Source: a virus. Taken from it: a stretch of DNA of 49,599 bases. The translations under genes and the position numbers were made by a program. Within the stretch, counting starts at the first letter, position 1, and every line of letters begins with the position of its first letter. The notes beneath the pieces are model-generated. The model did not search any database. It was not told where the DNA came from and was given only the letters and a program-made list of their open reading frames with translations. The stretch lies in IMG/VR virus record IMGVR_UViG_3300046674_000334, positions 1 through 49,599 of that record, one strand, 5' to 3'. Below, in pieces: positions 46,945 to 49,009 of this stretch.

Positions 46945-47352
46945 GAGACTTCCTCTCCTAGCGGGGTGGATGGATCACCGATCAGCGGCTGCAACCGCTG
47001 GTTGAACCGGCCGGGCGTGACAGCGCCCGGCCGTTTTGCGTTCCAGGGCAACTGCACCCCAGGTCTCGCCGAACCGACTTGCGAAGCCAGGCAGTACATG
47101 AACACTAAATCGGGCCAAGGGGAACGCAGGGCGCCTCGGTCTGAATCCGGCTACCGGGTTTCCTCCGCGATCGACAATTGTGATATTGCAAAGTCGCAGG
47201 TCGGCAGGGAGTTTTTCCCTTCGGAGGGAGTATCTGACCTCGGGAGTTTCCTATGGGAAACCTCGGTCTCTCGCGAGGAACGTTGCCAGACACGCTCACG
47301 CCAGCTCCTACGTGTTGACCTGAAATCGACCATGGCTGCTCAGGAGTTGGCC
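46945..47352. other. Long non-coding region with orphan terminator
   Basis: About 400 bases with no gene. From 46983 a small hairpin CAGCGG/CCGCTG is followed by a perfect 10-base-pair stem CGGCCGGGCG/CGCCCGGCCG and TTTT (47008-47037) on the + strand, with no + gene before it. The part 47160-47270 is notably A/T-rich for this genome and has ACAATTGT, GATATT, two GGGAGTTT repeats and TCCCT/AGGGA, so it probably contains promoters or a small RNA. Confidence 0.6.
47008..47037 (+). terminator. Intrinsic terminator without an upstream + gene
   Basis: CGGCCGGGCG/CGCCCGGCCG with 6-base loop and a TTTT tail. On the opposite strand there is no T-run, so it acts rightward. It would end a transcript that starts in or antisense to the DUF6907-like gene. 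Confidence 0.8.
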
Positions 47353-47760
47353 TCAGTGCGGCAGAACCTCATCGAGGTAGGCCTGCACCGGCTCGAACAG
47401 GCCGTAGGGCACGTACTCGCTGATCGACGCATGGGCGACCCAGGCCACCGCGTCCAGCTCTTCGGCGTCGGCGACGTGCGCTTCGCCGGACAGGGCCTCG
47501 CAGGCGGTGTAGCTCATGAGACGGCTCGTCTTCGGGTGAACGCGCTCACCGAGCAGGCGGATTGCCTTCACCGTGAGGCCCGTCTCCTCCTCGGTCTCGC
47601 GCACGGCCGCATCCTCGGCGCTCTCGCCGGCCTCGATCGCGCCCGCGGGGAACTGCCACATCAGCTCGCCCTCCTTCACGCGGCGCCGCACCATCAGCAC
47701 CTGCCCGCCCTGGACGATGATCGCGGCAGAGATGCCGGGCTTGGTCTCGGTGTCGCTCAT
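47353..47760 (-). CDS. NUDIX hydrolase
   Basis: A 135-residue enzyme with a complete NUDIX box, G40, E46, R54, E55, E58, E59, G61 (AGAIEAGESAED followed by AAVRETEEETGL). It would hydrolyse a nucleoside diphosphate linked to another group, such as a dNTP-type or ADP-type compound, with Mg or Mn. ATG 47760 follows GGAGG; its start overlaps the stop of the upstream XRE-NUDIX gene (ATGA), so both are one leftward operon. Confidence 0.92.
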   Translation of the reverse strand: MSDTETKPGISAAIIVQGGQVLMVRRRVKEGELMWQFPAGAIEAGESAEDAAVRETEEETGLTVKAIRLLGERVHPKTSRLMSYTACEALSGEAHVADAEELDAVAWVAHASISEYVPYGLFEPVQAYLDEVLPH

Positions 47761-48392
47761 GCTGCCTCCAAGGCATTCAAGACGGGCGGATATATGCGGT
47801 CGGCGGGAATGAAGCGGGTGAGGCTGCTGCGGGGGACCCAAGCGACGTCCAGATTCTCGACGGAGTCCAGGTTCGCGGCCTCGCCAGCCAGGTAGGTGCA
47901 AAGCACGTAAGACGCCAACACGCCTGTCTGCGGGTGGACTCGGGAGCCGAGCTGCTTGTCGACTGCGCAGTGCACACCGGTCTCGGCGTGAGTCTCTTGG
48001 ATCGCGACGGACTCGACGCTGCCGCCCGGCTTGACCATCCCGGCCGGGAACTGCCAGGACAGGGCGGCGTCCCCACGGCGGCATACGAGCAGGACGTCAT
48101 CGGCGCGGGTCACGACGGCGATGGCGACACGAAGGGCCTGCGCCTGGACACGCTCCTCGGGCGGGCGGGACAGGAGGCTGAACCTGCGCTGCACCATCTC
48201 ACCCGCCTTCTCGTAGATCGTGTCCAGTGCCGCCTGCATCTCGACACGGGGCACGATGTCGGGCGTTGCGTGCCAGCCGGCCACCGTGCGCGGAGATGCG
48301 CCGATCCGATTCGCGAACGCCTCATTCGACATCCGAAGGGCCTCCTGCAACACGCAGGCAAGCCGGCCCGTCCACTGATCGACGACGTCCAC
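47757..48392 (-). CDS. XRE HTH-NUDIX fusion protein (likely sensor-regulator)
   Basis: A 211-residue protein. Residues 5-50 form an XRE-type HTH (LQEALRMSNEAFANRIGASP, RTVAGW) and about 88-205 a NUDIX domain. The box is degenerate: G118 is kept, but the usual Glu is G124, and REUxEE reads Q132-E-T-H-A-E137. It may bind rather than cut its ligand and so regulate. GTG 48392 after GAGGGG is preferred to an ATG at 48452, which would lie inside the TGCA repeats. Transcribed with the active NUDIX gene. Confidence 0.82.
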   Translation of the reverse strand: MDVVDQWTGRLACVLQEALRMSNEAFANRIGASPRTVAGWHATPDIVPRVEMQAALDTIYEKAGEMVQRRFSLLSRPPEERVQAQALRVAIAVVTRADDVLLVCRRGDAALSWQFPAGMVKPGGSVESVAIQETHAETGVHCAVDKQLGSRVHPQTGVLASYVLCTYLAGEAANLDSVENLDVAWVPRSSLTRFIPADRIYPPVLNALEAA

Positions 48393-48425
48393 TCTCAGCC
48401 CCTCACGGTCCGTTCGGCGGCGTGT

Positions 48426-48482
48426 TGCATCACAGCTGCACTGGAACTGCACTGGCGGTGCATCGGCTGCACCGCCACTGCA
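48426..48482. promoter_or_regulatory. Phased TGCA operator array
   Basis: TGCA occurs at 48426, 48437, 48448, 48459, 48468 and 48479: spacings 11, 11, 11, 9 and 11, about one helical turn. Most sit in (A/G/C)CTGCA(C/T) context, CTGCACTGG being repeated exactly at 48436 and 48447. The perfect repeat TGGCGGTGCA/TGCACCGCCA (48453-48477) joins the middle copies. It lies 34-90 bases upstream of the XRE-NUDIX start. Confidence 0.75.
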
Positions 48483-48544
48483 TCAGCGGCTCATTGGCCC
48501 TTAAGCCGCCTGGGCGTTGACTCGAAGGCATGGACGGCACCCGG

Positions 48545-48796
48545 TCACTTCCCCTTGGAGATCTGCTCGGCTCGCTGCGCGGTGACGCCGTCCATGATCT
48601 CGCCGATCTCGCGCCACGTCTTGCCGTTCGCCTTCAGTTCGAGGGCAACGCCCTGGCGGACAACGCGAAGTCGGCCGTCGATGGCGGTCGCGGTCTTGCG
48701 ACTGGCCTGGTACCGCTCGATGGGATCGCTGATCGTGTCGAGGACATCGAGAGATTCGACGACGTGTGCGACTGCGGTGTCGAGGGAGTTGGCCAT
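48545..48796 (-). CDS. Small HTH protein
   Basis: An 83-residue leftward protein: N-terminal helices (LDTAVAHVVESLDVLDTI; DPIERYQASRKTATAID) and a C-terminal HTH-like end RQGVALELKANGKTWREIGE. Such small proteins occur in Streptomyces with a GxSWREIG motif. It is divergent from the genes at the right end over a 213-base region. Likely a DNA-binding regulator. Confidence 0.72.
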   Translation of the reverse strand: MANSLDTAVAHVVESLDVLDTISDPIERYQASRKTATAIDGRLRVVRQGVALELKANGKTWREIGEIMDGVTAQRAEQISKGK

Positions 48797-49009
48797 GCCA
48801 TGAGAGTAGGGGCGATTCCGACTCTCTTCAAGCCTGCGCTTGACGACTGGCCGTGGACCCTCTACCTTTCAAATCAGAGCTTGAAAGCGCGGCTCACTCC
48901 TACCGGACTTGTCCGTCGAGGCGCGCCCCACAACAGCAAACGGGCCGGACACCGCGACTCCTACATCGCAGGCCGGCCCTCACCACCAGGATCTTTGAGA
49001 GGACCCCTG
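48797..49009. promoter_or_regulatory. Divergent intergenic region with inverted repeat
   Basis: The gap holds CTTTCAA/TTGAAAG with an 8-base spacer (48866-48887), an A/T-rich spot likely to contain a promoter or operator for one of the two divergent genes. GAGAGGA precedes the + gene at 49010. No gene is seen. Confidence 0.5.

Follow-up and report, generated by a model that had tools for sequence, protein, structure and literature searches.

The NUDIX box has the form GX5EX7REUXEEXGU. MsNrtR is an autorepressor with a degenerate NUDIX domain that is released from DNA by ADP-ribose (PMC6800001), and NUDIX-HTH sensors for ADPr have been predicted in conflict systems (PMC9503650). Mobile elements of Streptomyces commonly encode NUDIX proteins. 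One of these proteins, Pif of pSAM2, blocks redundant transfer by acting in recipients, and AICEs carry mdp-nud-xre clusters, described as having separate nud and xre genes (PMC3218068). An HTH plus nudix gene of Streptomyces ICE01 is mentioned in a single sentence, with the data not shown (PMC9513070).

Here we analyze a pair of genes, P1 and P2, from IMGVR_UViG_3300046674_000334, a virus contig of 49,599 bases, the whole of which we refer to as the window. P1 encodes an HTH joined to a degenerate NUDIX domain and P2 encodes an intact NUDIX protein, and a phased array of TGCA cores lies upstream of both.

The P1-P2 locus in a temperate phage contig

The window derives from a temperate phage of Streptomyces. 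Its terminase has a phrog match with an E value of 6e-150, integrase and repressor-like genes are also present, and in the portal-capsid region it is related at the DNA level to Streptomyces phage Kromp; a portal relative is found in 15 of 29 related contigs. The P1-P2 pair reads leftward among rightward phage genes (Table 1).

Table 1. Positions of the P1-P2 genes and neighboring features in the window
Feature	Position	Strand
P2, NUDIX hydrolase of 135 aa with intact box; ATG at 47760, ATGA overlap with P1	47353..47760	-
P1, 211 aa, XRE-like HTH (residues about 8-75) and degenerate NUDIX domain (residues ~85-211); GTG start at 48392, stop at 47757	47757..48392	-
Phased array of six TGCA cores (48426, 48437, 48448, 48459, 48468, 48479; spacings 11, 11, 11, 9, 11), probable P1 operator	48426..48482	
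Inverted repeat TGCACTGGCGGTGCA/TGCACCGCCACTGCA within the TGCA array	48448..48482	
Small 83-aa protein, just upstream of the pair	48545..48796	-

Both genes, their ATGA overlap, the G124/QETHAE box of P1, the perfect box of P2, and the spacings of the six TGCA cores all agree exactly with the original prediction from which this work began; the end coordinate that it gave to the operon, 48482, marks where the array stops rather than the end of a gene. The P1 start in Table 1 is favored because of a conserved N-terminus and a GAGGGG ribosome-binding site. A longer P1, starting at an alternative GTG at 48452 in the ORF listing, was rejected because that codon falls inside the TGCA array.

The small protein is often encoded upstream of the pair in prophages and was not found at ten loci that carry a methyltransferase-nucleoside diphosphate kinase (NDK) cassette (see below), so it is not core to the pair. 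Upstream of its gene, the window has an inverted repeat, CTTTCAA-N8-TTGAAAG (48866-48887), which is possibly a second operator. On the other side of the pair, in the interval from 46.9 kb to the end of P2, the + strand can form a strong terminator-like hairpin of 11 pairs followed by a T tail (47008-47033).

A conserved division between enzyme and degenerate paralogue

P2 belongs to the NUDIX hydrolase superfamily, with a PF00293 match at an E value of 2.2e-23 and a full, perfect box, GAIEAGESAEDAAVRETEEETGL. The P1 NUDIX domain (residues 88-193, Pfam E value of 2.7e-12) has the NUDIX fold and lacks a complete catalytic box: in its box, GMVKPGGSVESVAIQETHAETGV, Gly124 replaces the first box Glu, Gln replaces Arg, and Ala136 replaces the first Glu of EE. 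For the comparison of boxes among relatives we used 71 (P2) to 73 (P1) rows, with evident duplicates removed, and MutT residue numbering. P2 retains G38, E44, R52, E53, E56, and E57 in 71/71 rows. In P1, E44 is gone in 73/73 rows and E56 in 72/73, and E53 and E57 are retained in 73/73. The loss is graded, with RETLDE in the rows from ICE-type cassettes and mostly QETHAE or QETHGE in prophage rows. Judging from their RETLDE boxes, the P1 members of ICE-type cassettes may still be active, and the assignment of P1 as a pseudoenzyme is unproven, E53 and E57 being still present.

In the NUDIX part of P1, pairwise dN is far below dS (e.g., 0.07 versus 0.45 for the window and the prophage-like locus L015), and by this measure the degenerate domain is under purifying selection. 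In the window, the P1 NUDIX domain shares 40% identity with P2, and in the tree one branch, with 100% SH-aLRT support, parts P1-NUDIX from P2. The degeneracy first seen in the window's sensor is therefore conserved among relatives, next to a partner whose box stays intact.

The AlphaFold2 model of P1 (pLDDT of 90.4) matches NUDIX hydrolases. The top fold match of its NUDIX domain is an Ap4A hydrolase (Z of 17.8, rmsd of 2.2 over 123 residues), with many others close. Ap4A/Ap6A hydrolases share the top rank with NudC and MutT1, and these Z values are too close together to favor either a NudC- or an Ap4A-like specificity. Modeled alone, the N-terminal domain (pLDDT of 91.9) has the five helices of an XRE domain, and its closest structures are HigA2, P2 C, and P22 c2 at the moderate scores of Z 6-7.4. 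Weak PF20432/PF01381 matches are present in members of the P1 family. In its predicted fold, the P1 N-terminus most resembles an HTH of the XRE (lambda-repressor-like) type. A number of likely pocket residues, among them R105, R106, E133, E137, R151, H153, N174, D176, E179, and N180, are invariant in the P1 alignment.

The pair is carried by several kinds of mobile element

Relatives of P1 are found in 34 viral contigs and 17 genome contigs (one a weak 26% match), and a wider search of 392 Streptomyces genomes detects full-length P1 proteins in 36 of them. Conservation of the pair had been set beforehand as a test of the original prediction, and all 36 full-length relatives keep an adjacent NUDIX gene, read from the match table for these genomes as a second NUDIX match directly downstream, so the prediction was not refuted on this count. 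Among pairs checked with a script, the start of P2 falls within the P1 stop codon (ATGA/GTGA) with one or two exceptions; the script searched first for this overlap. A tblastn search of the GenBank phage collection gave no P1 relative and, for P2, distant NUDIX matches only, and plasmids give partial or weak matches only. We regard P1-P2 as a real, conserved regulator-enzyme pair that is probably functional.

Three kinds of context recur. In prophage-like contigs there are FtsK-like and DUF2637-type genes near the pair (the DUF2637 label was assigned by eye in these clusters, and a Pfam match was obtained on the cassette locus L211). At ten loci, L211-L220, a six-gene cassette lies divergent from the pair and encodes a methyltransferase, a 463-aa unknown protein, an HD-like protein (matching PF01966 with 18.5 bits, under the cut-off of 22), a CYTH-like protein, a TPR-like small protein, and NDK. 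The cassette (L211:3821-8451, also in L212-L220) is on integrative elements, and some of these loci have a relaxase, a DUF2637 protein, and an integrase-like protein close by; it looks like a nucleotide-handling module. The third context consists of Amycolatopsis elements with an NDK gene (L044). The pair is thus not phage specific and travels as cargo on mobile elements of different kinds. No gene recognized as belonging to NAD metabolism is beside the pair in the neighborhoods examined. On two prophage-like, window-related contigs, an FtsK/SpoIIIE-type ATPase near the pair (L003:164-2323) and its presumed counterpart (L015:2-4404) suggest that conjugation-type genes are present in phage-like elements.

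Array type follows the recognition helix

The array is positioned about 34-90 nt upstream of the P1 GTG. It is the only array of at least three phased TGCA cores in the 49.6-kb window, compared with 0.04 in shuffled windows, and TGCA elsewhere in the window is below chance (121 observed versus 152 expected). Part of it is made up of a 15-nt inverted repeat (48448-48462 / 48468-48482) whose arms are 93% complementary. The surroundings of the array contain no sigma-70-like promoter that we could find. A scan of the viral contigs and 384 Streptomyces genomes for runs of four exact TGCA cores spaced 11 bp apart was uninformative: most genome matches resemble near-perfect minisatellites, and the spacers of P1 arrays are just 43% alike within a locus. 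We also considered P1 as a master phage repressor and rejected this because the window has no second phased TGCA array and has a separate repressor-like region near the integrase, at 25.8-29.3 kb.

Among relatives, TGCA arrays are present in 46/47 rows with an RTVAxW recognition helix, with 11 bp by far the commonest spacing (73/112 gaps). Rows with RT[IV][ST]RW (class B) instead have GACA pairs 11 bp apart (21/24) and no TGCA within 110 nt (0/24), and the two RTVGKW rows have neither a TGCA nor a GACA array. The array-type changes needed are one on the HTH tree versus four on the NUDIX tree. L009 (TGCA) and L027 (GACA) group as sisters on the NUDIX tree (98%) and differ in both HTH and array, and L003 clusters with the window by its NUDIX domain, yet it has a class-B HTH and no TGCA. 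Arrays also occur upstream of HTH relatives that have other C-termini. L244 (Amycolatopsis), without a recognizable NUDIX domain, has TGCA at -63, -52, -41, and -30; L052 (Kribbella), with a different C-terminus, has TGCA at -62 and -40; and L245, with another C-terminal domain, has two phased TGCA cores upstream. More distant HTH relatives have two, one, or no TGCA. The arrays of L244, L052, and L245 hint at a wider regulator family.

The array is at a near-constant distance from the P1 start across relatives. Because array type tracks the recognition helix and relatives with the same HTH and other C-termini carry TGCA, the array very probably serves as the operator of P1 itself, and in these comparisons the array that was originally noted over the operon behaves as one. 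Approached in this indirect way, the refuting condition that P1 does not bind the array did not tell against the original prediction. The HTH adjoins the array on the DNA, so that a single recombination event moves both and their cosegregation is not proof of contact; this linkage alone could explain part of the cosegregation. The arrays of HTH relatives without NUDIX help here as an independent check on the operator reading.

Class-B operators have their GACA pairs ~115 nt upstream of P1 (L005, L013, L019, and others), and class-B loci have conserved CCAGACCCGAGC and GAGCACGGGAGC blocks beside the start codon. An AGTCAAC motif (TTGACT on the + strand, 48518-48523 in the window) is conserved at ~-120 to -140 from P1 in most relatives and accompanies both array classes.

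A proposed nucleotide switch and its alternatives

We propose that P1 and P2 together make up a nucleotide switch that is mobile and autoregulated, in which P1 senses a nucleotide through its pseudo-NUDIX domain and P2 removes it, and we consider this explanation reasonably probable. P1 would be a one-component regulator whose XRE-like HTH binds the TGCA cores, one per turn, on one face of the helix. The site overlies the presumptive promoter region of P1 itself, where a probably cooperative oligomer would repress, rather than activate, the P1-P2 operon. Since P1 keeps the fold and two box glutamates and has lost the others, its NUDIX domain probably binds a ligand of the nucleotide-diphosphate-X type without hydrolyzing it efficiently. 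Ligand binding would alter DNA binding and lead to more P2, and P2, as the intact paralogue, would hydrolyze the same or a related ligand and reset the switch. If the P1 sensor is a degenerate copy of the enzyme, the P1 ligand should point to the P2 substrate. The TGCA and GACA array classes are a natural test of DNA recognition within a small HTH family.

The loss of the catalytic box of P1 is also what would be seen if its NUDIX domain were a mere oligomerization scaffold without a ligand, with P1 still autoregulatory and P2 a housekeeping-type enzyme coexpressed as cargo. The TGCA arrays of same-HTH proteins with unrelated C-termini indicate that the HTH unit works without NUDIX, as a scaffold would allow; however, a scaffold needs neither the invariant residues of the likely pocket nor an enzyme partner that is always retained (36/36), and we find this explanation unlikely. 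Still less probable is that the array belongs to another regulator or is a transfer site of the clt/TraB kind. TraB binds short repeats, and FtsK/TraB-like genes are present in many relatives, but array type does not go with FtsK type (TGCA occurs with both c5 and c17, and so does GACA), and the array keeps its distance from the P1 start and is also upstream of HTH relatives without NUDIX. We rejected the clt/TraB reading because array type does not track FtsK type, and would be surprised if any form of it proved correct.

The remaining alternatives concern what the pair is for. As a proposal, it could serve in interference between mobile elements or in cleaning up a defense or damage nucleotide; by analogy with Pif, and from the contexts of the pair, a role in element competition is suggested. 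P2 might, like Pif in recipients (PMC3218068), block the redundant transfer or superinfection of relatives, with P1 setting the P2 dose. The pair occurs both in prophage contigs and in elements that have FtsK/DUF2637, relaxase, or integrase genes, and this fits such immunity, which we hold possible while leaning somewhat against it, and which is compatible with the nucleotide switch. Phages carry signal-degrading enzymes, and P2 could instead destroy a nucleotide of host defense, or clear an NAD signal, that P1 detects. The prediction of NUDIX-HTH sensors for ADPr in conflict systems is in its favor (PMC9503650), but the sole match in the defense library is a generic NUDIX candidate model, PDC-S07, and the nucleotide-type neighbors (NDK, CYTH, HD) sit in the ICE-type cassette and give no pointer to NAD. 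We consider this explanation quite improbable. The original idea that the pair responds to a nucleotide signal is plausible and partly supported; that the signal is made in anti-phage defense or NAD metabolism found no direct support, either in that generic match or in the nearest folds, and is speculation. More broadly, these genes may belong to modular regulators of actinobacterial mobile elements, in which the HTH and its TGCA or GACA array are exchangeable as a unit before different sensors. The commonest version here, a pseudo-NUDIX with an active NUDIX paralogue, would then be a nucleotide-controlled switch with which phages and conjugative elements compete. We offer this larger scheme tentatively and think it rather unlikely.

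Comparison with known systems

The original prediction took NUDIX-related regulators as its precedent. This precedent is an analogy: a degenerate-box NUDIX domain acting as sensor and autoregulation, both seen in NrtR, are proposed for P1 as well. In contrast with the N-terminal NUDIX domain and C-terminal winged HTH of the NrtR family, P1 has the reverse domain order, and the NrtR operator is a single palindrome near NAD genes rather than a phased array. P1 also differs in being on mobile elements with an intact NUDIX paralogue alongside. Because domain order and operator type both fail, we rejected membership of P1 in the NrtR family.

The resemblances to Streptomyces elements are by description. 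The HTH-nudix gene of ICE01 apparently has the fusion architecture of P1 and is also on a Streptomyces mobile element; its mention gives no partner enzyme, operator, or box analysis. In the mdp-nud-xre clusters of AICEs, NUDIX and XRE genes adjoin and are accompanied by an HD phosphohydrolase; L211-L220, with the pair, an HD-like protein below the cut-off, NDK, and a CYTH-like protein, may be comparable. These two reports are the closest that we found. Pif and P2 are both NUDIX proteins of Streptomyces mobile elements, and we know of no HTH-NUDIX partner of Pif. Searches of an open-access library turned up no account of the pair together with its arrays, and one may exist elsewhere. Published work already mentions Streptomyces elements with HTH-NUDIX genes or nud-xre clusters, and what appears to be added here is the pair with its arrays, which, judged from sequence, would represent a new form of NUDIX-domain regulation with coevolving phased operators.
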